Positions 1,428-14,698 of a stretch of 64,000 nt of DNA are shown here, piece by piece (position 1 is the stretch's first letter; the number at the start of each line of letters is the position of its first letter). Under the pieces are notes generated by a model. The model was given only the letters and a program-made list of their open reading frames with translations, was not told where the DNA came from and searched no databases. The position numbers and the translations under genes were made by a program. Origin of the DNA: Desulfovibrio psychrotolerans (GTDB lineage Bacteria > Desulfobacterota > Desulfovibrionia > Desulfovibrionales > Desulfovibrionaceae); assembly GCF_013340305.1 (NCBI RefSeq), contig NZ_BLVP01000007.1, positions 1 to 64,000 of the forward strand, in the 5' to 3' direction.

Positions 1428-4400
1428 ATGACCGACCTTTACCCCTGCCGCAGGCTTGCCCTGATCCTCTTCCTGCTCCTGTTCCCATGGAATCAGCAGG
1501 CGCAGGCAACCGTTGCCAGCCAGCCGGTAGCCCTGTCTACCGTTCAGGATTCGTTGCGCCTCATTCCGCATCTGGATGCCCTCTCAGACCCCAAGGGGCT
1601 GTTCACTCCTGAGCAGGTAACTTCCGCAGCCTTCATCCGCAGTTTCGCCCCGCTCGCCCTGCGCGATGTAAACGCCAACTCCGGTGCCACATGGCTTCGC
1701 GTAAGGCTGGAGGCGGACAAAGGCGGAAGACTGGCGCAGGAAGGCCTGTACCCTGTCATGGATATGGGCGGCGCGCAGCCCGGCCCAGTAACGCTCTTTG
1801 TTCCTCAATACGATGACGACGCAGCCGCATGGCCCACGGGCTGGAAGGAGTTCTCCTCAGACGGTTCAAAACTGCTGCCGCTTCCCGCTCCGCAGTCCGG
1901 CTCTATAGTTTGCTACATTCGCATACCCGGCCCGCCCACACCGTGGTTCCACCCCACCCTGCACATGCGCAAGGCAGCCGAACCTGTACGGGAAGAACCG
2001 TTTATGCGAACCACCGTGGTGCAGGGCGTCATGGCGGGACTCATTCTGCTCAATTTTCTTCTCATGGCCATGGGCCGGGGCGAAAGCCGCTTCTGGCTGG
2101 CCCTGTACGGCGCGCTCGGGCTTATCCATTCCATAGCGGGCCCCGCTCCCGCCCCCGCCGGAGGCCTGCCCTTTTCCGCCGCGTGGTCCATCCTTACCCC
2201 CGGTCTTGCGCTTGTTCTGCTCCCCCACGTGGGAAGGCACATACTCGGCACATGGAAAAACAGCCCCGGCAATGACGAAATCTTCCGTGCCCTCTCCCTG
2301 CTGGGGGCGCTGCTTGTGGTTCTTCCGCTCATTCCCGGATGCGGCAGCCTTGTGCGCCTGCTCCCCCTGTGGCCGCTTCTCGCTCTCCTCGCGGCTTTTC
2401 CCGCTATTTCATGCAGCCTGCAACCCGTTCCGGGAGCCAAGCGATTCCTCCTTGCCTGCCTCATTACTGCATCGGGAGCCGTGCTTTCGCTGCTGCCCGC
2501 AGATTCACCGGATCAGGCGCGTCTGGCGTCGCTGCTGCCCCTGTGCGGAGTCGCTGCCGGACTGCTCCTGCTCACGCCGCTGGTGGGCATTCCCCGGGTA
2601 AGGGAGTCGGGCAAGCCCCTCCCCCTCTTTGCTGCACCTGCATTTTCAGAGCTTGACGATCTGCCGCCTGTGTTGCAGGGCATTCCCGCCACAGCCGCCA
2701 CCCCCCAATCCGCGCCTGCTTCGGCTGCAGCGGCAAAAGCTCCTGCCCTCCTTGGCCAGAGCACTCCTAAGCAGGCTATGCCCGCCGCTGTTGTTCCCAA
2801 CGTTCTGACAACTCCGACCAAGCCGAGTAAGCACGTGCCCCCCTCCAACTCAAACGGCTCAAGCGTCACGACCGATACAACCGTTCCCGCCGCCCGGCCC
2901 ATGCGTGCAGCGCAGAACGCGCACACCGCGCAGCCTTCTGCCCCCGCTGCGTCACCCGGCCGGGAGCAGTTGCGGCAGGAGGCCATTCGGGAACTGCTTG
3001 CCCGTGTAAGCCACGACCTGCGCACCCCGCTGAACACCATCCTGCATGTTGCAGAAAACCTCACCCTCTCCGCACTGAACCACACCGGGCATGAACAGCT
3101 CCGTACGTTGCAGGCGGCAGCGGGCAATCTTTCCACGCTGGTCAACGACCTGCTGGACCTGAACCGTGCGGACAAAGGCCGCCTGCGGCTGCGCCACAAG
3201 CCTTTTGACCTGCAACGTCTGCTCATAGAAACCCATGACATCATCCTCCCGCAGGCAGAGCAGAAAGGGCTGAGTCTTATATGGTATATGGCCCCGCATC
3301 TGGGCATCCGCTACAGCGGCGATGCCGACCGGCTGATGCAGATTCTTCTGAACATCCTCGGCAACGCCATACGGTTTTCCGACAAAGGCACCGTCTCCAT
3401 CCGTGTTACGCGGGTGCCGGATAGCGCGAACCCCGGGCATCTGCTGTTCCGCATACGGGACAACGGCATCAGTATTCCCCTGCAGAACCAGTACGACGTG
3501 CTCGGGGAATTCTGCCTCGATCCCGGCACGGGAACGGGGCGCTATGGTGCCACCGGACTGGGCCTGCCCATTGCCCGCGACCTTATCGGGCTCATGGGGG
3601 GCTGCATCTGTCTGGACTCCCGCCCCAATCAGGGCACGGAAGTATCCTTCTCTGTCCGGCTTTCGCCGCTGCCCGGCGACATGGTCGCCCCTGCCCCCGG
3701 CAGGCTTATGTCCGCTGTGAATGAAGAGGACGAAGCGCATCCCTTTGCCAAGCCTCCGAAACAGTTTGAAAATCATCTCCTCGTTGCGGACGATGTAGCC
3801 AGCAACCGCCAGCTTGTCCGCTTCTTTCTGGAAGGACTGCCGCTGGTCATGATAGAGGCGCGAACCGGTGAAGAGGCCGCAGCCCTGTATACCGCGCACC
3901 CCTGCGGCGTCGTTATGGTCGATGCCGACATGCCCGGCATGGGCGGCCCCCGCACGGTAAAGGCCATACGCGAATTCGAATCACGCAACGGACTCGACGC
4001 CGTGCCCATTCTGGCACTCACCTCCCGTCCGGAAGAGAGCGGCTCCATGCATGAGGCGGGCTGCACCGCCACGCTTCCCAAGCCCATTTCGCGCACACGG
4101 CTGCTGGAAATGCTCACGCGTCTTGTTCCGCCGCACATCCTGCGCCGCACGGCACAAGCTTCTGCAGCGCACGACGCGGAGACGGAGACGGAGACCGGAA
4201 ACGCCGCCCCGCAATCCGCAGAACATCACATCCAGCCCTCTCCTTCCCATGCCACGCAGCCGGAACGCACCCGCTCCGGAAGCGCATACGCCCCCGGCCA
4301 CCCGCACACCCCCGGCCCGGTGCATCCTCATACGCACGACAGCAGTGCACGCGGCGTTGCCCATACGGCCGGGCAGCAGATGCCGTATTCCGCCTTTGGT

Positions 4401-4958
4401 GGCAACGGAGCGTCAGAAACGCCCGTGTCATCGGAAACATCGGGAACATCGGAAACACAGGAAGCCGCAGCGGCCCGATTCAACCCGCCTTCTTATGCGC
4501 CCCCCCTCCTGCTCAACACTTCTGCCTCGCCAGAACAGCAAGGCGCACCAATGATACAGGCGTCTGAAGCAGCCATCCCCCCTGCCGCTTCTGCTCCCGC
4601 GCCCACTCCAGAAGGCACATCCCCCGCAGCTCTGGTGCCCAATCTGGATACCAGCCTCATTCCGCTGATACCGGGCCTGCTGGAGAGCATCGCCTCGGCC
4701 CTGAACGATGCGCACAGACACGCCTCTGCCGCCAACACATTCGGCGTGCAGGAGGCCACGGGCAGAATAGGCGGTTCAGCCGCCAGTTTCGGCCTGCGTG
4801 CCCTTGAACGCATGGCCCGCTGCGTAGAACGTGCCGCAACAGCGGACGATCTGGAAGCGGTTACCACTCTGCTGCCCGATCTGGAAAACATGGTCAGCCG
4901 GAACAGCCGGGCACTGGCAGACATCCACCGCATGCACCAGACTATGACGAAGCACTGA
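1428..4958 (+). CDS. 7TM-DISM hybrid sensor histidine kinase with receiver and degenerate Hpt domain
   Basis: A 1176-residue membrane sensor kinase. A signal peptide (about 1-27) precedes a periplasmic domain of the DISM type (about 35-180), then a seven-helix membrane block (about 195-390) and a long Ala/Pro-rich linker. The kinase core has a dimerisation helix with phospho-acceptor His529 in RVSHDLRTPLN. A HATPase domain follows, with IRDNGISIP and a Gly-rich GATGLGLPIARD lid. A receiver domain has Asp832 in VMVDADMPGM and a conserved Lys in LPKPIS. A second low-complexity linker leads to a C-terminal helical domain resembling Hpt. There the usual H-x-L-K-G-S-A motif reads G-R-I-G-G-S-A, so the phospho-accepting His and the Lys are absent. 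The start is ATG with AGGAAC upstream. The signal it senses is unknown. Confidence 0.85.
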   Translation: MTDLYPCRRLALILFLLLFPWNQQAQATVASQPVALSTVQDSLRLIPHLDALSDPKGLFTPEQVTSAAFIRSFAPLALRDVNANSGATWLRVRLEADKGGRLAQEGLYPVMDMGGAQPGPVTLFVPQYDDDAAAWPTGWKEFSSDGSKLLPLPAPQSGSIVCYIRIPGPPTPWFHPTLHMRKAAEPVREEPFMRTTVVQGVMAGLILLNFLLMAMGRGESRFWLALYGALGLIHSIAGPAPAPAGGLPFSAAWSILTPGLALVLLPHVGRHILGTWKNSPGNDEIFRALSLLGALLVVLPLIPGCGSLVRLLPLWPLLALLAAFPAISCSLQPVPGAKRFLLACLITASGAVLSLLPADSPDQARLASLLPLCGVAAGLLLLTPLVGIPRVRESGKPLPLFAAPAFSELDDLPPVLQGIPATAATPQSAPASAAAAKAPALLGQSTPKQAMPAAVVPNVLTTPTKPSKHVPPSNSNGSSVTTDTTVPAARPMRAAQNAHTAQPSAPAASPGREQLRQEAIRELLARVSHDLRTPLNTILHVAENLTLSALNHTGHEQLRTLQAAAGNLSTLVNDLLDLNRADKGRLRLRHKPFDLQRLLIETHDIILPQAEQKGLSLIWYMAPHLGIRYSGDADRLMQILLNILGNAIRFSDKGTVSIRVTRVPDSANPGHLLFRIRDNGISIPLQNQYDVLGEFCLDPGTGTGRYGATGLGLPIARDLIGLMGGCICLDSRPNQGTEVSFSVRLSPLPGDMVAPAPGRLMSAVNEEDEAHPFAKPPKQFENHLLVADDVASNRQLVRFFLEGLPLVMIEARTGEEAAALYTAHPCGVVMVDADMPGMGGPRTVKAIREFESRNGLDAVPILALTSRPEESGSMHEAGCTATLPKPISRTRLLEMLTRLVPPHILRRTAQASAAHDAETETETGNAAPQSAEHHIQPSPSHATQPERTRSGSAYAPGHPHTPGPVHPHTHDSSARGVAHTAGQQMPYSAFGGNGASETPVSSETSGTSETQEAAAARFNPPSYAPPLLLNTSASPEQQGAPMIQASEAAIPPAASAPAPTPEGTSPAALVPNLDTSLIPLIPGLLESIASALNDAHRHASAANTFGVQEATGRIGGSAASFGLRALERMARCVERAATADDLEAVTTLLPDLENMVSRNSRALADIHRMHQTMTKH

Positions 4959-5282: not shown

Positions 5283-5864
5283 ATGAAACGCGATGTGATT
5301 CTCGACACCGCCGCCCGCCTGTTTGCGGAGCGGGGTTTCAACAACACCCCCACCAGCCTGCTGGCAAAAGAGGCCGGAGTTGCAGAAGGCACCATATTCC
5401 GCCACTTCCGCACCAAGGACGATATTTTTCTCACGCTCATCAACAACGTGAAGAACCAGCTTATCAGCGATATCGAAAAGTATCTTGAAGTACGCGGACC
5501 GGAAAACGCGCTGGAAAAGCTGGAATCCGTCATCAAGTCCTTCTATGTGTTCGTCAAAAAGAACAACATGGAGTTCTGCCTTATCTTCCGCGATGCCCCT
5601 ACGCGGTACGGGCAACGCAATGATGATGTTTTTCTGAACATCAAAGAGATATACACGTACGTCACAAACTATATGAAAGACGCCATAGACGAGGGGAAAG
5701 CGGAAGGCACCATACGGGCCGATATCACCTCGCAGGAATTCGCCGACATGCTCATGAGCACCATGGTCGGTCTTGTCCGCGCTATGCACTTCGGATTCAT
5801 CGAATCCTCTGATGACATTTTGAAAACTGTCATCGAAAGCTTCTCAAAACTGCTCACCAAGTAA
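5283..5864 (+). CDS. TetR/AcrR-family transcriptional regulator
   Basis: This 193-residue protein has an N-terminal TetR DNA-binding domain (about residues 1-50). The helix-turn-helix reads SLLAKEAGVAEGTIFRHFRT, followed by the family's usual KDDIFL. The remainder is an all-helical ligand-binding and dimerisation domain. Such proteins repress efflux, lipid or stress genes and are released by small hydrophobic ligands. The ligand and targets cannot be read here. It sits alone between a hybrid kinase and a chemoreceptor, with a strong terminator directly after it, so its targets may be itself or distant genes. Confidence 0.9.
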   Translation: MKRDVILDTAARLFAERGFNNTPTSLLAKEAGVAEGTIFRHFRTKDDIFLTLINNVKNQLISDIEKYLEVRGPENALEKLESVIKSFYVFVKKNNMEFCLIFRDAPTRYGQRNDDVFLNIKEIYTYVTNYMKDAIDEGKAEGTIRADITSQEFADMLMSTMVGLVRAMHFGFIESSDDILKTVIESFSKLLTK

Positions 5865-5886
5865 TCCGCCGTATGCCGCAACACAG

Positions 5887-5915
5887 GGCCGTGCTTCACG
5901 CACGGCCTTTTTTTT
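5887..5915 (+). terminator. Strong rho-independent terminator after tetR-like gene
   Basis: A perfect stem GGCCGTGC / GCACGGCC with a 5-base loop is followed by eight T residues. Confidence 0.92.
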
Positions 5916-6034: not shown

Positions 6035-8080
6035 ATGAACTGGAAGGATATTACCCTGAAGGGCAAGTTCGCCGTTGGCTTCGGCAGCGTGCTCATTCTG
6101 CTCCTCGGCCTTGCCGCATGGTCTGTAACGGGCATAGGCACCATTGTGGGCAACGCCAAGGAAGTTATCTCCGGCAACAAATTGCGCGGCGATGCCGTGC
6201 AACGGACTGTCGACCATCTGAAATGGGCTGAGCAGGTACAGCTGCTGCTTTCTGACGATACAGTACATACTCTTACCGTGCAGACCGATCACACACTCTG
6301 CGGTTTCGGCAAGTGGTACTACGGCGAAGAACGCAAAGAGGCCGAACGGCTGGTTCCCCAGCTGATACCCGTCTTGCAGAAAATAGATGAGCCGCACGCC
6401 CGGCTGCACAAATCCGCCGTTACCATCAAGGAACTCTACCGCCCTGCGGATAATGCCCTGCTCAGCTTCATGTACGTTAAAAAACTTGACCATCTGGAGT
6501 GGATGAACAACGTCCTTGCCACCATTACAGATACGCAGGCAACCCAGTTGGGCGTACAGCTGGACCACACCCAGTGTTCACTGGGCCGCTGGATGTATTC
6601 TTCGGAAACACAGGAGCGCGCCCAAAAAGACCAGACCCTCGCCTCGCTGCTCACTGCCGTGCACGACCCGCATAAGCAGTTACACCAGAGCGGTTCACAA
6701 CTGAACGACATGCTCCGCGCCGGAAGAAGGGATGAGGCAGTTCAACTGTACCATGCGGACACGCGCCAGTATGCGGCTGCCACCCTTGCCGCGCTGGATA
6801 CCCTCATCCACGAATACGAAGCCCGCAACGAGGGCCTGAACAAGGCCAAAAGCGTGTTCGTGAACGAAACCACCCCCGCCCTGAACATGGTGCAGGCAAG
6901 CCTTGCCGAACTGGTAGACGTGGCCGCAAAACATGTCATGACGGATGAGACCATGCTCCACGCCGCCTCAGATACCCGCATGGTCGTGTTCGCCGCCAGC
7001 GGCGTGGCTCTTGTCATCGGCACCTTTCTGGCCTTCGTCATCGCGCGCGGCATCATCGGCCCCCTGCGCAAGGGTGTGGACTTTGCCGAACTCGTAGCCA
7101 CCGGCGACCTCACCGCCCGGCTGGATGTGGAACAAAAGGACGAGGTAGGCACCCTTGCAAACTCCCTGCGCAGCATGGTCGTCAAGCTCAAGGAGGTGGC
7201 AGCGTCCATTGAGAGCGGCGCTTCCAATGTGGCTGCGGGCAGTGAGGAGCTTTCCGCCACAGCCCAGACCCTGTCGCAGGGTGCCACGGAGCAGGCGGCA
7301 GCCATAGAAGAAATCTCCGCCTCCATGGAAGAGATGACAGCAAACATTTCCCAGAACGCCCAGAATGCCACGGAAACGGAACGTATCTCCCGCGCTGCTG
7401 CGCAAAGTGCGGCTCAGGGCGGGCAGGCCGTGAGCCAGACCGTTGCCGCCATGAGGCATATTGCGGACAAGATCTCCATTGTGGAAGAAATTGCCCGCCA
7501 GACCAACCTGCTGGCCCTTAACGCCGCCATAGAGGCCGCCCGGGCCGGCGACCACGGCAAGGGATTCGCCGTTGTCGCGGCAGAGGTGCGCAAGCTGGCG
7601 GAACGCTCCGGCAACGCGGCGGCAGAGATAAGCGAACTGTCCACAAACAGTGTCAGCGTGGCGGAAAACGCAGGGTCCATGCTTGCCGCGCTGGTGCCTG
7701 AAATACAGCGCACCGCAGAACTGGTTCAGGAGATAGCCGCAGGCACTTCCGAGCAGTCCAACGGGGCACAGCAGGTGACCAAGGCTATCATCCAGCTGGA
7801 TCAGATTATTCAGCAGAATGCCTCCGCCTCGGAGGAAATGGCTTCCACGTCAGAAGAACTTTCGGCACAGGCCATTCAACTGCAGCAGACCATCGGCTTC
7901 TTCAAGGTGGACACAGTACCGGGCCGGAGCACCCCGCAGGGCCCACGCAAAGCCGCCGCCCGCGTGAATACGGGATCTGCCCGCAAGGCACTTCCCGACA
8001 AGACGCAGGCTTCGCGCGGCAAGGCCGATTCGCTGCGGTTGGACATGAGCGACGACGACAGCGAGTTTGAACGCTTCTAG
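6035..8080 (+). CDS. Methyl-accepting chemotaxis protein with tandem periplasmic CZB domains
   Basis: This 681-residue chemoreceptor has a first membrane helix at about 12-34, a periplasmic region, a second helix at about 318-338, a HAMP domain and a C-terminal signalling coiled coil. The coiled coil carries the conserved hairpin tip [20 protein letters not shown]. The periplasmic part holds two complete chemoreceptor zinc-binding (CZB) motifs, Hxx[W]-x24-Cx[F/L]GxW-x26-HxxxH. The first uses H61, W64, C89, H121 and H125; the second uses H153, W156, C181, H213 and H217. CZB domains bind zinc and respond to metal or oxidants, so this is probably a zinc or redox receptor. GGAG lies 7 bases before the ATG. 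The C-terminus ends in a short acidic tail without an obvious CheR pentapeptide. Confidence 0.93.
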
Positions 8081-8154: not shown

Positions 8155-8910
8155 TTACTCTCCCGGCTGAACACCGGCAGGCGTTCCCCCTGTCCCCCCG
8201 ACCACAAAGGCAGAGGCATCCGGCGTAACGCCTGAAGGCGCATGGGCAGAGTGTTCCGGCCCGTACGCCGCCACAAGGTCATCCACCACATTGCCCTCGC
8301 GCCCCTGCCGCAGCAACGCAGCCGGGTCTTCTCCTTTGCGGCGTGCCGCCGCCACAACGCCCAGCAGGGTACGCACGGCCTCGTCAGCCTTTGCCGCCCA
8401 CCGGTTGCGGGTATCATCACCGCGTATACGCCCTTCCCCGTCTGCGCCCGCAGGGGAATACCCCTCGCCCGTTGCACCTTCTTCTGCGCTGCCCACCGCA
8501 CTGCCTGCCATTCTGTCTGCCGCACCGTCCGCCGCACCGCCTTCCGCATCGCGCAAAAAACCTTGATACTGTGCTTCGCGCAGCTCCCGTATCTCTGCAT
8601 GCGCCTCATCCCGCGCGCGCATCCGCAACCGCTCGGCATGAAACGCCATGCTGCCGCCCACCTGTCCCACAAGGGCGGCCTGCTCCAGCGGGTCTCTGGA
8701 ATGTTCCAGCACGGCACGCGGCACATTGCCAAAGGCAGCCGCTGCGTCCTGCATCCTGCCGGGCTTGGATTCGTCCACAATGCTCCGCAGCCGCCCTTCA
8801 GCCTGCACGGCAAGCCGCAGCACGCCCGCCGCCCGCTCCGCATCGGAAACATCCCGGCGTCCGGCTCCGGCCGGTCCATGGAGACCCCCCGGTCCCGCGT
8901 CCAGTATCAT
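8155..8910 (-). CDS. Hypothetical protein of phage module A
   Basis: This 251-residue protein has no recognised family. It is rich in Ala, Gly, Arg and Glu, with helical stretches around RLRMRARDEAHAEIRELREA and a Gly-rich centre. I take the ATG at 8910 because it overlaps the stop of the scaffold-like gene as ATGA, the same coupling seen at the two junctions upstream. The longer GTG start at 8955 lacks a well-placed ribosome-binding site. In podovirus-type operons the slot after the scaffold usually holds the major capsid gene, but this sequence does not look like one. It could be an accessory or internal virion protein. The function is unknown. Confidence 0.6.
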   Translation of the reverse strand: MILDAGPGGLHGPAGAGRRDVSDAERAAGVLRLAVQAEGRLRSIVDESKPGRMQDAAAAFGNVPRAVLEHSRDPLEQAALVGQVGGSMAFHAERLRMRARDEAHAEIRELREAQYQGFLRDAEGGAADGAADRMAGSAVGSAEEGATGEGYSPAGADGEGRIRGDDTRNRWAAKADEAVRTLLGVVAAARRKGEDPAALLRQGREGNVVDDLVAAYGPEHSAHAPSGVTPDASAFVVGGTGGTPAGVQPGE

Positions 8911-9887
8911 GCCGCCTGCCCGCGTTGCACGCCCACCGCGAAAAGACGTGTCCACATCGCCCTGCCCGCCTCCCGCAACACCTTCCCGCTGCGGGGGAAT
9001 GGATATGCGTTTCTGAAGACCTCGGTCCTCAGAAACTCCTCCGTGCTCATGGGCGCGGTCGCTGCCGCATACGCTCCGGGCTGTGCGGAAAAGGCATCCT
9101 CGCTGATGGATTCGCCGATCACGGCCATCATCTCCGCGAACACCCCGTTATTCCCCAACCCCGCCGCAAGCAGCGGACGCAGCCTGCCCCCCATCTGCCT
9201 GTCCAGCACATGCGTGGCATAGTTGGCCTGCGCCAGGCGTTCCTCAAACCGCCCCGCCCATGCTCCTTCGCGCAGCGAGCGCAACGAACTTTCCCGTTCC
9301 TCGCCCATGCGGCGGGCCTGTTCGGCAAGGTAGAAGTCCGCCGCCTCCTGCGCCTGCCGCGCGTTCAGCCCGCAGTCCACGCAGAACTGGCGGTAGCTGT
9401 TCAGCATGGACTCATCCACCGGCATCCCTTCGGGAAAGACGATGGAAACCGCTTCAGGATCAGCCAGCGGGGCCTCCTGCTGCGTGCCGTTTTCCGCCCC
9501 TCCGGTTCCCTGACCGGGCGTCCCGCCAGCGGCCGCGACAGCCTGCGTGGCACCCTGTTCGCGCCCCTGTTCGCTCCCCTGTTCGCTTCCCTGTTCGCTC
9601 CCCTGCCCAACGCTCCCTCCGCCGCTCTCCCCGCTGCCCGATACGGCACCCGACCCGGCTCCCGACCCGGCTCCCGACCTGTCCGCAACGGTGCGCACGG
9701 CCAGTTGCCTGTCAGCCAGGTGCTGCATACCACCGGGCAACTCGCCGGAAACCAGCGGGGCTCCTGCACTGCCCGCATCTTTCGTCCCGCTTCCCGCAAC
9801 CCCGCCTGCCTGAGCAGGCACGCCGGGGGCGGAGCTTCCCTGAGCGGTGCCCTCCTGCCCGGCCATGCCGGAAAATGGATTCTTCAT
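8907..9887 (-). CDS. Phage scaffold / capsid-assembly-like protein (module A)
   Basis: This 326-residue protein has a disordered Gly/Ser/Ala/Gln-rich first half, including a 12-bp DNA repeat coding (S/R)EQG four times. The conserved C-terminal half includes QFCVDCGLNARQAQEAADFY, then a WAGRFEERLAQANYATHV segment and LLAAGLGNNGVFAEMMAVIG. This Asp/Glu- and Ala-rich helical pattern, ending in a 'GLGNxxxxxxxxxxIG' stretch, is typical of capsid-assembly (scaffold) proteins that follow the portal gene in T7- and BPP-1-like phages. It is coupled by ATGA overlaps to the Bbp19-like gene upstream and the unknown gene downstream. The family assignment is by pattern recall, not by a search. Confidence 0.65.
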   Translation of the reverse strand: MKNPFSGMAGQEGTAQGSSAPGVPAQAGGVAGSGTKDAGSAGAPLVSGELPGGMQHLADRQLAVRTVADRSGAGSGAGSGAVSGSGESGGGSVGQGSEQGSEQGSEQGREQGATQAVAAAGGTPGQGTGGAENGTQQEAPLADPEAVSIVFPEGMPVDESMLNSYRQFCVDCGLNARQAQEAADFYLAEQARRMGEERESSLRSLREGAWAGRFEERLAQANYATHVLDRQMGGRLRPLLAAGLGNNGVFAEMMAVIGESISEDAFSAQPGAYAAATAPMSTEEFLRTEVFRNAYPFPRSGKVLREAGRAMWTRLFAVGVQRGQAA

Positions 9888-10396
9888 ACGTTCTTCTCCC
9901 GTGTATGCACGCGGTCCGGCCCTTCAGGTTCCGAACCGCCGTTTTCCCGTCCCCGCGCCACATTTCCGCGCGCCGCTTCGTTTCCCGTCCTGCAAACCGG
10001 CGCAGGCTGCATCTTGGACATCGACCGGCAAGCCCACTGCCGCGCCCCCTCAAGCTGCATGCGCACGTGGCTCACGGGGTCGGCAAGGGCAATGTCTCCC
10101 ATACGGTCGCGGGCGTAGTCATACAGAGCCGTTGCCCCGTAAACGGAAGCGTTGGTGCGCGAAAGCCTCTCGTTGGCGCACGCGCCGTCCAGCCAGTGCC
10201 GCAGCACCCGCACCCCCGCGCCCGAATCCACCCGCAGCACCTCGCGCAGGTCCGCCAGATACGAGAGCATCCTCGCCTCCTCGTCCCGCGCCTCCCGGCG
10301 CACCCGCTCATAATCGGTCGCCAGCAGGTCGGTCAGGGCCTCCTCGTCCAGTTCCAGCAACGCTCCCAATTCCCTGTCCTTGGCCATGTCCGTCAT
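9884..10396 (-). CDS. Bbp19-like phage protein (module A)
   Basis: This 170-residue protein has a core GVRVLRHWLDGACANERLSR followed by NASVYGATALYDYARDRM. This resembles the small Bbp19-type proteins encoded next to the portal gene in BPP-1-like podoviruses, which show a 'GxRVLxxLLxxxxxxxxSF....LxxxxGRRxxG' pattern. The C-terminal third is basic and probably flexible. The start codon overlaps the portal stop as ATGA and its own stop overlaps the scaffold-like start, so translation is probably coupled. Its role in phage biology is not settled. Confidence in the exact family is moderate; confidence that it belongs to the phage set is high because of the operon. Confidence 0.6.
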   Translation of the reverse strand: MTDMAKDRELGALLELDEEALTDLLATDYERVRREARDEEARMLSYLADLREVLRVDSGAGVRVLRHWLDGACANERLSRTNASVYGATALYDYARDRMGDIALADPVSHVRMQLEGARQWACRSMSKMQPAPVCRTGNEAARGNVARGRENGGSEPEGPDRVHTREKNV

Positions 10397-12087
10397 GCAC
10401 CCTCCCCGCGCCGCGCAGCCAATCCCGCCTGACGCAGCACAATATCCACGGCGTTGCCCTGCTCCGTTTCCACGCCGGAAAGTTCCTTTGCCCCCCGCAC
10501 CAGCCGCAGCATCTGTTCCTCCTGCGCCCGTTCCAACTGGGCCGCCTCGCGCGCCTCACGCACCCCGCGCACCTCGTCGGCAGAGCGGATAATCCGCGCA
10601 GGCGCACCCGCAATGGCAGCAAGCTGATCCACGCACTGGTCAAAATCCAGCTTGTCCAGCACCTGCGGTGCAACGGCGGCCATACGCTCCACATCCCCCG
10701 CCAGCTGCCGTATGGCATGCCCTGCGGACTGTTTCTGCGCCTGCGCCAGAACGGAAACGTATTCTATGTTCATCTCCTCCCCGGCCAGTTCCGGCGGCAC
10801 GGGCGGCAGCGCCCCTGCACGGGAAAGAATCCCGAAGCTGCGCGAGATGAGCGGGTCCAGAATCTCGGTCTGATAGCGCTCAATGACAGGCCCGAGCATG
10901 AGCAGCTTCTCCTGACTGCGCTCCATCACCTCGGCCGCCGTCACGTTAGACCGCGCATCCCCGGCGAACATGAGAAACAGATCGTTGAAGAACCCCTCAC
11001 GGATGGCCCGGCGCACGTCATCAATCTTGTAGCTCACCGCTTGAATATCGGGGTTTATCTGATACAGGGGTGCCAGCGCGTCCGGCTGGTTGGGGTTCAC
11101 ATAGTTCTGCGCACCGGGGATAAGGTTCAGCCGCTGCTTATACCCCGTGGGCACCCGCATGGGCGGATTCACCACCTTGTGCACGGCAAGCAGCTGACTT
11201 TTGGCCATCTCCTGCAGCATCTTCACATCGGGCAGGGCATCCATGCCCGGAGACCGCCCGTACACATCAGAGCCGTTTACGTCCCAGCGGGCGCACAGGT
11301 GCGGAAACTCCTCATAACCACCCTCATGCAGCAGGTCCGCTCCCGGCCCGTCTCCTGTCCGCGCCGCCTCAAACACCACCGATGCCCACGGCATATTCAG
11401 CCTGTCCCGTTTGGCAACATCACGTTCCCGCCGGGGCATGACCAGATGCACCACCTCCATGAAACCGTAAGGTTCCTTGCGCAGCATCCTGCGTGCGGCG
11501 GCGCTCATGGCCTGTTCCCCATAGCGTTCCGCCACCTGCCGCGCGGTCATTACGGAACGGCGGGCCACCGTATCCACCCTTCCGTGGGCGTTGGCGGCCC
11601 ATGCGTATTCCCCGCAGGAAAGACAGGAAAAATTCATACCCCGTTCGGCATCATGCGCATGGTACAGGTCGGCAGAGCCGAACGCTCCCAGTTCCGTGTA
11701 CATGCCGTGGATGGACTGGTAGAAGTTGGATCGCGCAAGCGCGTTGTAAACGCGCCCTTCCACGTCATCCAGCCACACGCGCACCGGGCCGAACTCCATG
11801 AGATCCCGGTCCGCCAGACGCAGCCGGAACCACGGGCGCGCGGGCGACGTCAGCCCGCCCTGCATGCCTGCCGCCAGCACACGCACGGCTCTGGTGGCCG
11901 TGGAATCAATAATTCTGGCTCCGCGCCTCTCGCCCCTGTCCGGCTCGCGCGAGGAAGCGCTCCCGAACCGCCCCTTGTAGGGCACCACATATTCCGCAAT
12001 ATCGCGCCACAGCGGTTCCCAGCCGGACCTGCGGGATTCCAGAAACGCCACAGTCTCACGGGCCATTTTCAGTCGGGTGGATTCCAT
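10393..12087 (-). CDS. Phage portal (head-to-tail connector) protein (module A)
   Basis: This 564-residue protein closely follows the 'bacteriophage head to tail connecting protein' family, the podovirus portal that forms the ring through which DNA enters the capsid. Recognisable landmarks are WRDIAEYVVPYKGRF near the N-terminus, AAGMQGGLTSPARPWFRL (about residues 72-89), the PPMRVPTGYKQRLNLIPGA region, and AGDARSNVTAAEVMERSQEK, with LLMLGPVIERYQTEILDPLI close behind. Its length is normal for the family and the frame is uninterrupted. It starts 3 bases after the stop of the small upstream gene and overlaps the next gene by ATGA. Codon use looks like that of the host. It is the anchor gene of module A. 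Confidence 0.9.
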   Translation of the reverse strand: MESTRLKMARETVAFLESRRSGWEPLWRDIAEYVVPYKGRFGSASSREPDRGERRGARIIDSTATRAVRVLAAGMQGGLTSPARPWFRLRLADRDLMEFGPVRVWLDDVEGRVYNALARSNFYQSIHGMYTELGAFGSADLYHAHDAERGMNFSCLSCGEYAWAANAHGRVDTVARRSVMTARQVAERYGEQAMSAAARRMLRKEPYGFMEVVHLVMPRRERDVAKRDRLNMPWASVVFEAARTGDGPGADLLHEGGYEEFPHLCARWDVNGSDVYGRSPGMDALPDVKMLQEMAKSQLLAVHKVVNPPMRVPTGYKQRLNLIPGAQNYVNPNQPDALAPLYQINPDIQAVSYKIDDVRRAIREGFFNDLFLMFAGDARSNVTAAEVMERSQEKLLMLGPVIERYQTEILDPLISRSFGILSRAGALPPVPPELAGEEMNIEYVSVLAQAQKQSAGHAIRQLAGDVERMAAVAPQVLDKLDFDQCVDQLAAIAGAPARIIRSADEVRGVREAREAAQLERAQEEQMLRLVRGAKELSGVETEQGNAVDIVLRQAGLAARRGEGA

Positions 12088-12090
12088 ACG

Positions 12091-12318
12091 TCACTGCCCC
12101 AGAAGCTGTTTTCTGTGTATGTTGGCCTGCGATGTATCGCCCAGCGCACCGGTAATGATGGTCGATTCGCGCCCCATAGCCGCAAGCTGCGCCTTGCGCT
12201 CGTCCTCACGCGCCTTGCGTGATGCCTCGGTCTCCCCCTGCGTCTCCGCCGGCGGGTCCGGCGGGGGTGGCGGTGCCACCGGTGCCGGGGGACTGTAGGA
12301 TTTTCCGCCTCCGCCCAT
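12091..12318 (-). CDS. Small phage virion-associated protein upstream of portal (module A)
   Basis: This 75-residue protein begins MGGGGKS, continues with a Pro-rich stretch and ends with a basic segment followed by MGRESTIITGALGDTSQANI and a short Lys/Leu tail. Many podoviruses carry a protein of this design (short Gly/Lys start, Pro-rich linker, GR-x-STIxTGxxG) directly beside the portal gene. The start is set by a near-perfect AAAGGAGG seven bases before the ATG at 12318; the longer open frame upstream translates only a tandem repeat. It is the first gene of module A and lies 3 bases from the portal start. Confidence 0.75.
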   Translation of the reverse strand: MGGGGKSYSPPAPVAPPPPPDPPAETQGETEASRKAREDERKAQLAAMGRESTIITGALGDTSQANIHRKQLLGQ

Positions 12319-12344
12319 GCAAACCTCCTTTGCGTGAACCATGT

Positions 12345-12424
12345 GCCCGGCCCGCCCGGCCCGCCCGGTCTGCCCGGTCTGCCCGGTCTGCCCGGTCTGC
12401 CCGACCTGTCCGACCTGTCCGGTC
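12345..12424. repeat. 9-bp tandem repeat array in the leader of phage module A
   Basis: Nearly nine copies of a 9-bp unit (GCCCGGTCT, with GCCCGGCCC at one end and GTCCGACCT at the other) lie 27 bases upstream of the first gene of module A. The array is within the presumed transcribed leader. Confidence 0.9.
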
Positions 12425-12810
12425 AAGAACGCTGCCCGGCTACCAAGCCAGCCCGACTCAAGGCCGCCCTGTTCAAGGCCGTCCTGTGCATTACAGTACG
12501 CAGCGCCCCATGCGCCGCGCCGCCTCATGCGTGAACGGACCCTACACGGCCAGTTTTTTGTAAAACGGCGTCAGGCATGTCCCAAGGGGGTGTACGATGT
12601 GTCCCGGCACGGTGAGGATGGGGGTGGACGCCCTGTGCAAAACGGACTCATGTCCGTGCTGCGGGAATGTAAGACCGTGCAGATACGGGCATGAACCCTC
12701 TTGCAAAGCGTCATGTCCCACCCACCCCGGCGGCGATACGGCAATAATGATGATAGGATGGGAGAAGGAGGCGGAGAGTCCGGAAAAACGGGAATCGGCT
12801 GCCATATCTG

Positions 12811-12869
12811 ACCGGACAAGACCAGGTCAGGCCAGACCAAATCAGATCAGATCAAACCAGATCAGGCAC
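12811..12869. repeat. Degenerate AGATC-type tandem array
   Basis: Short repeats of the form (A)CCAGATCAG / AATCAGATC with a 5- to 10-bp period. Apart from this and the array nearer the module, the gap from 12319 to 13048 holds only the icd terminator and no convincing gene. Confidence 0.7.
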
Positions 12870-12922
12870 GACAGCACCCCAAAGCCCGTGCCCGTACCTC
12901 CCTGTGGCGCATAAAAGAAAAT

Positions 12923-12950
12923 GCCCCCCGCAGAAAACTCTGCGGGGGGC
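12923..12950 (-). terminator. Terminator of icd
   Basis: A perfect 12-bp stem GCCCCCCGCAGA / TCTGCGGGGGGC with a 4-base loop, followed on the minus strand by ATTTTCTTTT. It separates icd from phage module A, so module A must have its own promoter between here and 12345. Confidence 0.92.
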
Positions 12951-13048
12951 GCGGTCATCGTGTCACGGCACAACAGCGCACAGCAGCGCACGCAGGGGCA
13001 CGCAGGGGCACGCTGCGGCACTCTGCGTGCGCAAAGGCAGGTACAGAA

Positions 13049-14197
13049 CTACAGCAGCGAGCCCAGAATATCGCCGAACTCCCTGCAGCCCACGGTCCGT
13101 GCGCCTTCCATCTGCGAGGCAAGGTCCACGGTCACGGACTTGGCGGAAATGGCCCGGTTCATGGCGTTATGGATAAGGGCAGCCGCCTCGTGCCAGCCTA
13201 AATGGTCCAGCAGCATGGCACCGCACAGGATAAGACTTCCGGGGTTCGCCTTGTCCTGCCCCGCTATGGTGGGCGCGGTGCCGTGGGTGGCTTCAAAGAA
13301 CGCCAGCGTGTCAGACATGTTCACGCCCGGAGCAAGCCCCAGACCGCCCACCTGCGCGGCAAGCGCATCGGAAATGTAGTCGCCGTTCAGGTTGGTGGTG
13401 GCAATCACGCTGTACTGTTCGGGGCGGATGAGCACCTCCTGGAACATGGCGTCGGCAATGCGGTCCTTCACCACAATGCGGTCCGTGCCGGGAGCGGCGT
13501 CCTTTTCCGTCACCGTGCGGTCGCCGAACTCATCGCGCGCCACCTCGTAGCCCCATTCACGGAACCCGCCCTCGGTGTACTTCATGATGTTCCCCTTGTG
13601 CACAAGGGTCACACTGGATTTACCCTGCGCCACGGCGTATTCCAGTGCCTTGCGCACCAGCCGCTTGGAGCCTTTGGGCGTCATGGGCTTCAGCCCCACG
13701 CCTGCGGTAACATCCACATTCACACCCAGTTCGCTACGGAAAAAATCAATTATGCGCATTGCTTCCGGCGTACCGGAGGCATACTCAATCCCCGCGTACA
13801 CGTCTTCCGTGTTTTCGCGGAACACAATCATGTCCACCTTTTCCGGGTGCTTCACAGGCGAAACAATGCCTTCAAAGTAGCGTATCGGACGAATGCAGGC
13901 ATACAGGTCCAGCGTCTGCCGCATGGTCACGTTCAGGCTGCGGAACCCCTTGCCCACCGGGGTAGTCAGCGGTCCCTTTATGGCAAGCTCGGCACCGCGC
14001 AGGGCATCCAGCGTGCTCTGGGGCAGGTACTCGCCTGTCTCGCGGAAAGCCTTCTCCCCCGCCAGCAGTTCCTTCCACTCAAGCGAACGCTCCGATCCGT
14101 ATGCCTTCTCCACAGCCCTGTTCACCACGGGCTGGGCAACCTTCATCACCTCGGGACCAATCCCGTCACCTTCAATAAACAGTACAGTCTTGCGCAT
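13049..14197 (-). CDS. icd: Isocitrate dehydrogenase (NADP-type)
   Basis: This 382-residue enzyme oxidises and decarboxylates isocitrate to 2-oxoglutarate. It begins with the family's KTVLFIEGDGIGPEVM. The substrate loop is SLNVTMRQTLDLYACIRPIR, including the Ser/Arg residues that bind isocitrate. The metal-binding Asp residues lie in NLNGDYISDALAAQ, and the cofactor region is ATHGTAPTIAGQDKANPGS. It is somewhat shorter than the E. coli enzyme, as in many anaerobes. I chose the ATG at 14197 because GGAGG lies 9 bases upstream. It is transcribed alone. NADP preference is inferred from family resemblance. Confidence 0.92.
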   Translation of the reverse strand: MRKTVLFIEGDGIGPEVMKVAQPVVNRAVEKAYGSERSLEWKELLAGEKAFRETGEYLPQSTLDALRGAELAIKGPLTTPVGKGFRSLNVTMRQTLDLYACIRPIRYFEGIVSPVKHPEKVDMIVFRENTEDVYAGIEYASGTPEAMRIIDFFRSELGVNVDVTAGVGLKPMTPKGSKRLVRKALEYAVAQGKSSVTLVHKGNIMKYTEGGFREWGYEVARDEFGDRTVTEKDAAPGTDRIVVKDRIADAMFQEVLIRPEQYSVIATTNLNGDYISDALAAQVGGLGLAPGVNMSDTLAFFEATHGTAPTIAGQDKANPGSLILCGAMLLDHLGWHEAAALIHNAMNRAISAKSVTVDLASQMEGARTVGCREFGDILGSLL

Positions 14198-14698
14198 TCG
14201 AGCGTCCTCCAGTTCAATATCCCCGCGCAAACGGGTCACGGAACCTAGCAAACGTTACCGAATTTGTAAAACGCGGAAAACGCCCTCTCCCCCCGCCCTT
14301 GCTTCCCCTTCTCCTTCTCCGTCGCCGCATCCGCACTGCATAAACCGGGCGCTAAAACGCTGCCGGAAATGCATCGCATCCGGTATCGCATTGCCTTTTT
14401 TCCCGCATCACGGTAAGCACCAGCACGCGCTCAACGTCCATGCTTCCTTCCCGCAGCCCGTTCCGACTCCCATTCCGCCGGAACGTCCGCCGGAAAATCA
14501 GCCGGAACGTCCGTCATACAACCCGGCAAAGCATGGCAACCGCGCAACGGCATTTTCCGGTCTGCTCCCGATAACATGAGTATACCGCGCCAACGGGTCC
14601 CCGCCTGCCCCGGGCAATACGCCAGCCGCCGACAGGCAGCGGGTAACGCACGGGGGGGCGCCTCCCCGTCACCGGGCGCGTCACGCGGAAGAGTTGCA
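14198..14698. other. Intergenic region between icd and the glycan gene set
   Basis: No gene is visible. This divergent gap should hold promoters for icd (leftward) and the glycosyltransferase fusion (rightward), though I find no clear hexamers. It contains a short tandem array of GCCGGAACGTCC-like units at about 14478-14516. Confidence 0.5.

Follow-up and report, generated by a model that had tools for sequence, protein, structure and literature searches.

A chemoreceptor with two complete CZB domains in its periplasmic loop, one predicted to be nested within the other

INTRODUCTION

When a chemotaxis receptor carries two complete CZB zinc-binding motifs between its two membrane helices, how are the two domains arranged, and what might the receptor sense with them? 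The question is raised by a gene of Desulfovibrio psychrotolerans that lies in the window, as we call the whole stretch of 64 000 nucleotides that was analysed (contig NZ_BLVP01000007.1). CZB domains located in the periplasm are already known, a 2021 survey giving 384 such sequences, ~3.9% of CZB sequences (PMC8262984). The location is therefore not new, and the new aspect of what is a known kind of receptor is the nested double, and in some receptors triple, CZB arrangement. No description of a double or nested arrangement was found in the literature searched, which comprised mostly titles and the beginnings of abstracts and few subscription journals. The sole match to 'two CZB domains' proved to refer to dimeric DgcZ, in which each chain has one such domain (PMC12871147).

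RESULTS

Two complete CZB motifs in a periplasmic loop

The gene (6035..8080, on the + strand like all the receptor features given below) is an open reading frame with an ATG start, encoding 681 amino acids. The order of its parts is TM1, two CZB motifs, TM2, HAMP and MCP signalling domain, which is the layout of a methyl-accepting chemotaxis receptor. Pfam finds CZB (PF13682) in two stretches with 95 bits for the whole protein, followed by HAMP at residues 336-386 (7040..7192) and MCPsignal at residues 452-607 (7388..7855). When each copy was scored apart with the PF13682 profile on the genome, CZB1 (Pfam match residues 61-131, 6215..6427) reached 54.9 bits and CZB2 (motif region 6491..6700) 51.5 bits, both well above the 29.4 required by Pfam. 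No other CZB match occurs in the 3.79-Mb assembly at E up to 1.

Each motif contains the whole set of three histidines and one cysteine. The zinc ligands predicted from the sequence are H61 (6215..6217), C89 (6299..6301), H121 (6395..6397) and H125 (6407..6409) in CZB1, and H153 (6491..6493), C181 (6575..6577), H213 (6671..6673) and H217 (6683..6685) in CZB2. The cysteines lie in CxxGxW-type motifs, CGFGKW and CSLGRW, where the following residue is G and S respectively and not Arg, and they are the only cysteines of the protein. An earlier note on this DNA had claimed two complete motifs, and this holds: both domains exceed the Pfam cut-off and all eight ligand residues are where it placed them.

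Hydropathy in 19-residue windows, at a threshold of 1.6 or more, gives membrane segments at ~6-39 and 314-345, while the intervening loop does not exceed 0.94. We place TM1 at ~residues 13-34 (6071..6136), inside a model helix of residues 8-73 that also bears H61, and TM2 at ~residues 315-337 (6977..7045), in the model helix 304-355. Since both HAMP and the MCP signalling domain lie C-terminal to TM2, the loop between the two segments should be periplasmic, on a topology taken from hydropathy. The same note had proposed a periplasmic sensory module between the two membrane helices, and neither outcome that it named against its claim was found: the HMM calls both CZB domains, and hydropathy puts the region between TM1 and TM2 and not in the cytoplasm. 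The soluble TlpD-like layout, with no TM segment and a CZB C-terminal to the signalling domain, does not describe this receptor.

Conservation of the two ligand sets

The two CZB halves of the receptor align with each other at 33% identity over 80 amino acids. Both ligand sets are kept in 62 of 66 receptors with an equally long loop, the D. psychrotolerans receptor included (L001 was dropped as a copy of L002 before counting), although this may be an overestimate because retrieval used CZB peptides. The self-alignment and the intact ligand sets together argue that the double CZB does not arise by chance. The exceptions have lost the CZB1 set (L062, L066 and L082) or H153 (L091). Of the cysteines, C89 is kept in 63/66 and C181 in 66/66. 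Mean pairwise identity is 54% for CZB1, 35% for CZB2, and 35 and 23% for the two segments D1 and D2 of the helix that returns to the membrane, described below; from these alignments CZB1 appears to be the slower-evolving half.

CZB2 is predicted to interrupt CZB1 after its third helix

If the two domains were simply serial, each should add one motif period to the loop. The motif period is 92 residues, yet the spacing of TM1 and TM2 grows by 124-125 residues per CZB, the remaining 34-36 lying between the last CZB and TM2, and simple tandem was rejected. The repeat structure was analysed in 61 long-loop receptors, the set of 66 without L062, L066, L082, L091 and L103. The ascending part of the loop has a period of 92 residues and the return segment one of 36; the H61-H153 distance is itself 92 residues in 61/66. 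The 36-residue repeat has a score of 0.011, compared with a mean of -0.71 (sd 0.13, maximum -0.32) for 1000 column shuffles. When the best of offsets 8-53 was taken for each of 200 shuffles, the maximum was still -0.10. The sum 92+36 = 128 is near the difference in length between one- and two-CZB receptors, 124-128 residues.

The return helix (6728..6943; model helix 232-300) can accordingly be divided into two 36-residue repeats, D2 (232-267) and D1 (268-303), which would complete the bundles of CZB2 and CZB1 respectively. In a single comparison the D2 and D1 profiles match with E 7.8e-7, probability 84.5% and 16% identity, while against the profile of helix C, D2 and D1 gave probabilities of just 0.05 and 0.07%.

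Receptors with one CZB provide a separate view of the same boundary. When the 14 of these were aligned to the double form, 10 placed no residue in 141-259, the exceptions being L072 and L096 with 3 residues each, L074 with 8 and L024 with 23. A D1 profile (38 positions) scored better than a D2 profile of equal length on 11 of the 14, with 1 tie and 2 losses, and the mean scores were 21.5 and 13.2 bits.

AlphaFold2 was run on residues 1-382 with 47 relatives, as a zinc-free monomer, and gave a model of mean pLDDT 92.5. Its helices are 8-73, 90-95, 98-106, 108-134, 140-165, 182-187, 190-198, 200-228, 232-300 and 304-355. The CZB of E. coli DgcZ (3t9o) aligns with model residues 138-263 (Z 13.5, rmsd 2.4, 116 of 120 residues). 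On the model CZB2 is thus a predicted four-helix bundle like that of DgcZ, with a Z in the range that the tool flags as possible between unrelated helical bundles; other four-helix sensors score alike, MCP2201 with Z 14.3. It is because such values can arise between unrelated bundles that the nesting was tested separately by sequence. The whole inserted, membrane-distal module, helices A2-B2-C2-D2, would span ~residues 141-268 (6455..6838), as the 3t9o match and the block missing from one-CZB receptors both indicate.

The membrane-proximal module, with helices A1-B1-C1 in the CZB1 motif region, would be interrupted in sequence. The structure search lists one row per PDB entry, so that a match of 3t9o to CZB1 could not appear besides that to CZB2. 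The compact four-helix domain 4zvc spans model residues 49-299 with just 113 residues aligned, discontinuously, as would be expected if the inner bundle were made of ~49-134 and 264-299. In the model of the one-CZB receptor L063 (five sequences, pLDDT 79.4), 3t9o aligns over 47-172 with Z 13.0. Discontinuous four-helix matches and the L063 model together suggest that CZB1 too is a four-helix bundle, and the model and the repeats suggest that the return helix pairs with each bundle in turn.

Stacks of the HBM type also align with the model, McpS (2yfb) with Z 12.2 and 225 residues aligned over 45-299 but rmsd 9.1, PilJ (8wdf) with Z 11.3 and rmsd 7.1, and TorS (3o1i) with Z 10.9 and rmsd 8.8. 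The HBM profile (PF16591) found no match in the receptor at E up to 1 in Pfam, where the HMMER filters drop most weak matches. Foldseek alone returned nothing at E up to 0.001, the DgcZ and McpS matches coming from the VIA second look; a single-sequence search of the PDB gave weak pentatricopeptide rows only, and a profile search matched the HAMP and TM stretches and, below them, three weak unrelated rows.

The insertion of CZB2 between helices 3 and 4 of CZB1 is well supported by computation, as the AlphaFold model, the repeats of 92 and 36 residues and the one-CZB receptors agree. The 'tandem' of the earlier note therefore stands in so far as two full CZB domains share one loop, but they are not simply serial.

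Receptors with one to three CZB domains form a ladder

Among 395 genomes from the phylum, 53 were matched at E up to 1e-20 by a profile of the double sensor, a count that also covers matches to single CZBs. Where some frames gave overlapping matches to this profile, the stretches fetched contained nine receptors with three CZB domains. Four of these (L118-L121) share one genus, and two of them one genome. Pfam itself reports three CZB stretches in L116 and L118. All three ligand sets are whole in 6/9; in the alignment a single His is missing from each of L121 and L123, and L126 is degenerate. A further frame, L127, with three CZB hits and a single TM, was kept out of the nine.

The median TM1-TM2 spacing is 179 residues for one CZB (173-183, n=14), 303 for two (297-310, n=63) and 428 for three (428-432, n=9), where the one- and two-CZB classes were themselves set by spacing (165-200 and 285-325), the 10 rows outside comprising two pieces of L064 and otherwise CZBs at the C-terminus. 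The distance from the last CZB to TM2 rises in step, being 60, 94 and 130 residues. In the match positions listed for 22 genomes, no receptor had four CZBs. The sensor thus appears to grow by whole modules.

The modules need not all be CZBs. In L062 and L082 Pfam finds a 4HB_MCP_1 match followed by a CZB in one loop, and L132 resembles them in layout, with one CZB at 168-239 in a loop of 305 residues. We had considered decay of CZB1 in L062, L066 and L082, but Pfam shows 4HB_MCP_1 in that place in L062 and L082; L066 is grouped with them by alignment alone. We read the CZB stack as a scaffold that accepts whole modules. In L117, L124 and L131 an sCache_2 domain lies within the CZB stack.

Distribution and ancestry of the double form

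How general is the arrangement? In a sample of the D. psychrotolerans family CZB was found in 83/149 genomes, and a pair with the spacing of the double form (267-282 bp) in 30/149; within the genus the receptor is present in 4/10. Other carriers, judged by locus title, include members of the Thermodesulfobacteriota, Magnetococcales, Bacteroidota, Nitrospirota, SAR324, Krumholzibacteriota and Muiribacteriota, together with a gammaproteobacterial and a Chlorobiota MAG, several being short MAG contigs for which misbinning is possible. With 30 of 149 family genomes, several phyla and triples too, the double form is no isolated case. It is rare in the Bacteroidota sample, where 2/345 genomes match: the genome at the centre of the sample does so at full length, the other over just one CZB.

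In a sample of the phylum of a Magnetococcales MAG (L040) 31/397 genomes match, 27 of them at full length. Every one of these 27 belongs to the class of L040, from which 35 genomes were sampled, and the other 362 genomes gave none. Within the class, which we take as Magnetococcia, a full-length match at E up to 1e-60 is present in 37/48 genomes and absent from 11, in a search where just a limited set of first-look candidates goes on to scoring, which means that absence is not proof. Both CZB motifs were present in the four receptors fetched from this class. Such spread is a correlation among related genomes, for which a Fisher test does not give a fair probability.

At L049, L070, L084 and L110 there are two or three double-CZB receptor genes per locus. 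Three genomes of the Magnetococcales class contain frames of 356-361 residues that resemble the double-CZB sensor but have just a single hydrophobic segment, lack a signalling domain and have lost the Cys ligands (L140, 3013-4095, -; L141, 1015-2082, +; L142, 938-2008, -); that of L140 adjoins an intact double-CZB receptor.

Trees of the single domains were quick, with 85 columns, and are read without direction. On all 152 rows CZB2 domains required 3 changes and CZB1 domains 6. With 10 long or odd rows taken out (L091, L103, L078, L047, L068_C and L064_C) CZB2 became one clade, with SH-aLRT 96, whereas CZB1 required 4 changes and the one-CZB rows 5. CZB1 and one-CZB domains intermix, and cytosolic C-terminal CZBs stand apart. 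The trees fit one old duplication, which would have been inherited as a unit.

DISCUSSION

Relation to known sensors

The receptor resembles the periplasmic (N-terminal) CZB chemoreceptors, cluster III of the 2021 survey, in having its CZB between TM1 and TM2 and a residue other than Arg after the Cys (PMC8262984). It differs in that the main-text section on that group describes no multi-CZB or nested sensor, whereas here there are two full domains, one within the other. The CZB of DgcZ shares its four-helix fold with the modelled CZB2 and has the same 3His/1Cys set, but it is cytosolic, occurs once per chain at the N-terminal side of a diguanylate cyclase, and the two CZBs of the dimer are described as packing together (PMC12871147). 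H. pylori TlpD and Salmonella McpA are likewise CZB-regulated chemoreceptors; TlpD, however, is soluble with a single C-terminal CZB, and McpA is described as similar in architecture. The HBM sensors McpS, PilJ and TorS place two helical modules in one periplasmic loop, as the model predicts for this receptor, and are not known to contain a CZB motif. Each of the two modules of McpS is reported to bind a signal molecule (PMC5126104).

A proposed mechanism and its alternatives

Our preferred reading, to which we give a probability of roughly 0.6, is that the sensor consists of two CZB four-helix bundles end to end, CZB2 nested in CZB1, each binding a zinc ion, and that changes in zinc occupancy are passed to CheA, so that free periplasmic zinc is read as a report on redox or sulfide. 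Computation supports the domains, ligand residues, topology, nesting and conservation. The fold order would be A1-B1-C1-[A2-B2-C2-D2]-D1. The chain would leave the membrane via TM1 and CZB1, build CZB2 as the outer storey of the stack, and come back to TM2 in one long return helix that gives a fourth helix to both bundles. Each bundle would bind one Zn2+ through its 3His/1Cys set, with H61 on the helix that extends from TM1. If either bundle lost or took up zinc, its A-B-C core might loosen or tighten, shifting the return and TM helices and, through HAMP, changing the activity of CheA. We infer zinc binding, the direction of the signal, the use of zinc as a redox gauge, and any additive or cooperative use of the two sites. 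Linked sites might sense metal or oxidant cooperatively, as the earlier note raised.

The receptor may therefore be a periplasmic sensor of available zinc, acting as a gauge of redox or sulfide. The signal would probably be free periplasmic zinc, reporting local redox and sulfide, as high sulfide would lock zinc as ZnS. CZB affinity for zinc is given as femtomolar-range (PMC13370339, PMC8262984), loss of zinc is reported to alter kinase output (PMC12871147), and a 2026 preprint makes the case that CZBs follow the availability of zinc as a stand-in for redox state, without mention of periplasmic CZBs or sulfide (PMC13370339). We estimate that at pH 7 1 mM sulfide would leave free zinc at ~4e-16 M and 1 µM sulfide at ~4e-13 M, using a ZnS constant. 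At such concentrations a femtomolar-range site could switch; the link to sulfide is our own proposal. CheW matches 13 of 78 proteins near the receptors of relatives (78 picked from 272 candidates), which fits a working chemoreceptor; no zinc-specific neighbour gene was present among the 25 families listed, of 81, for these 78 proteins.

The CZB experiments considered here concern cytosolic proteins; in the periplasm such a site could respond to a different signal, or its zinc could be structural. One alternative, which we think unlikely, is an oxidant sensor, in which the two zinc-bound cysteines would be oxidised directly in the periplasm and free the zinc, in the manner of the Cys-Zn switch proposed for TlpD. 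The near-constant retention of C89 and C181, the sole cysteines of the receptor, would be expected of such a sensor, and the CZBs of TlpD, McpA and DgcZ are reported to react with HOCl (PMC6715182, PMC8262984). But bacteria of anoxic sediments would hardly meet HOCl, and zinc availability has been argued to be the more general signal (PMC13370339). A little less probable again is a purely structural zinc, with the real ligand, an organic acid or other small molecule, held in a pocket of the helical stack as in HBM receptors. Here the overall shape like that of the McpS, PilJ and TorS sensors is to be set against the high rmsd of the McpS match; relatives replace or combine modules with 4HB or sCache, and the genome also encodes a paralogue whose sensor is of the HBM type. 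Yet the predicted ligands rank with the best-conserved residues of the sensor, and the return helix is poorly conserved (D2 23% and D1 35%, compared with 54% for CZB1).

It seems very improbable that the duplication has no functional consequence, one site working and the other being decorative. CZB1 is indeed better conserved than CZB2 (54 and 35%), and 14 receptors manage with one CZB. Both ligand sets are nevertheless whole in 62/66, though retrieval favoured intact motifs, and double forms persist across several phyla.

Zinc sensing by two nested bundles thus remains our preferred reading, and it can be extended, speculatively, to an expandable metal-sensing ladder. CZB domains would be inserted in each other once, twice or three times, each adding one zinc site and ~125 residues with a single return helix kept in register, and the number of modules would tune sensitivity or range. 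In sediment bacteria this might act as a redox-taxis receptor reading the free zinc set by sulfide, and in magnetotactic cocci as one of the receptors behind magneto-aerotaxis; as a whole we consider this extension improbable. To our knowledge the receptors that steer magnetotactic cocci are not settled. With 37 of 48 genomes in the class of the Magnetococcales MAG carrying it, the double form is a concrete candidate for use at the oxic-anoxic boundary. More generally, the nesting of whole zinc-binding modules appears to be a route of sensor growth, whose forms with one, two and three domains can be compared directly, and the receptor offers a defined case for studying what a receptor gains from several linked zinc sites.

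Genomic context of the receptor gene

The receptor gene is flanked by a terminator-like hairpin and a convergent phage-like block. The hairpin (5885..5909, +), between a TetR-family regulator gene and the receptor gene, has a 10-pair stem and a T tail; it is a consensus match only, with 4 such sites in the region where 2.6 are expected. A sigma-28 promoter for the receptor was sought by its consensus and rejected, as the best site matches at 8/12 and 607 sites in the window do as well. The TetR gene (5283-5861, +) was considered as a partner and set aside, as it occurs in 10/10 genomes of the genus and the receptor in only 4/10; its product is 79-89% identical across these genomes, our own excluded.

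The genome contains 36 MCPsignal matches, two of which are pieces of one frame. In a paralogue from the same genome (L112, G000:C7:339000-342600; 914-2938, -) HBM matches with 30.1 bits against a cut-off of 29.8. The paralogue has the same TM1-TM2 spacing as the receptor (303) and is 62.7% identical to it from residue 308 on.

The phage-like block (8907-14251, -) includes a phrog_458 protease (8907-9887), a head-tail connector (PF12236, phrog_332; 10393-12087) and a phrog_1724 member (13049-14251). On the other side of the TetR gene lies a hybrid histidine kinase (1428-4955, +) with HATPase, HisKA and receiver domains, and with weak matches to 7TMR-DISM and Hpt.
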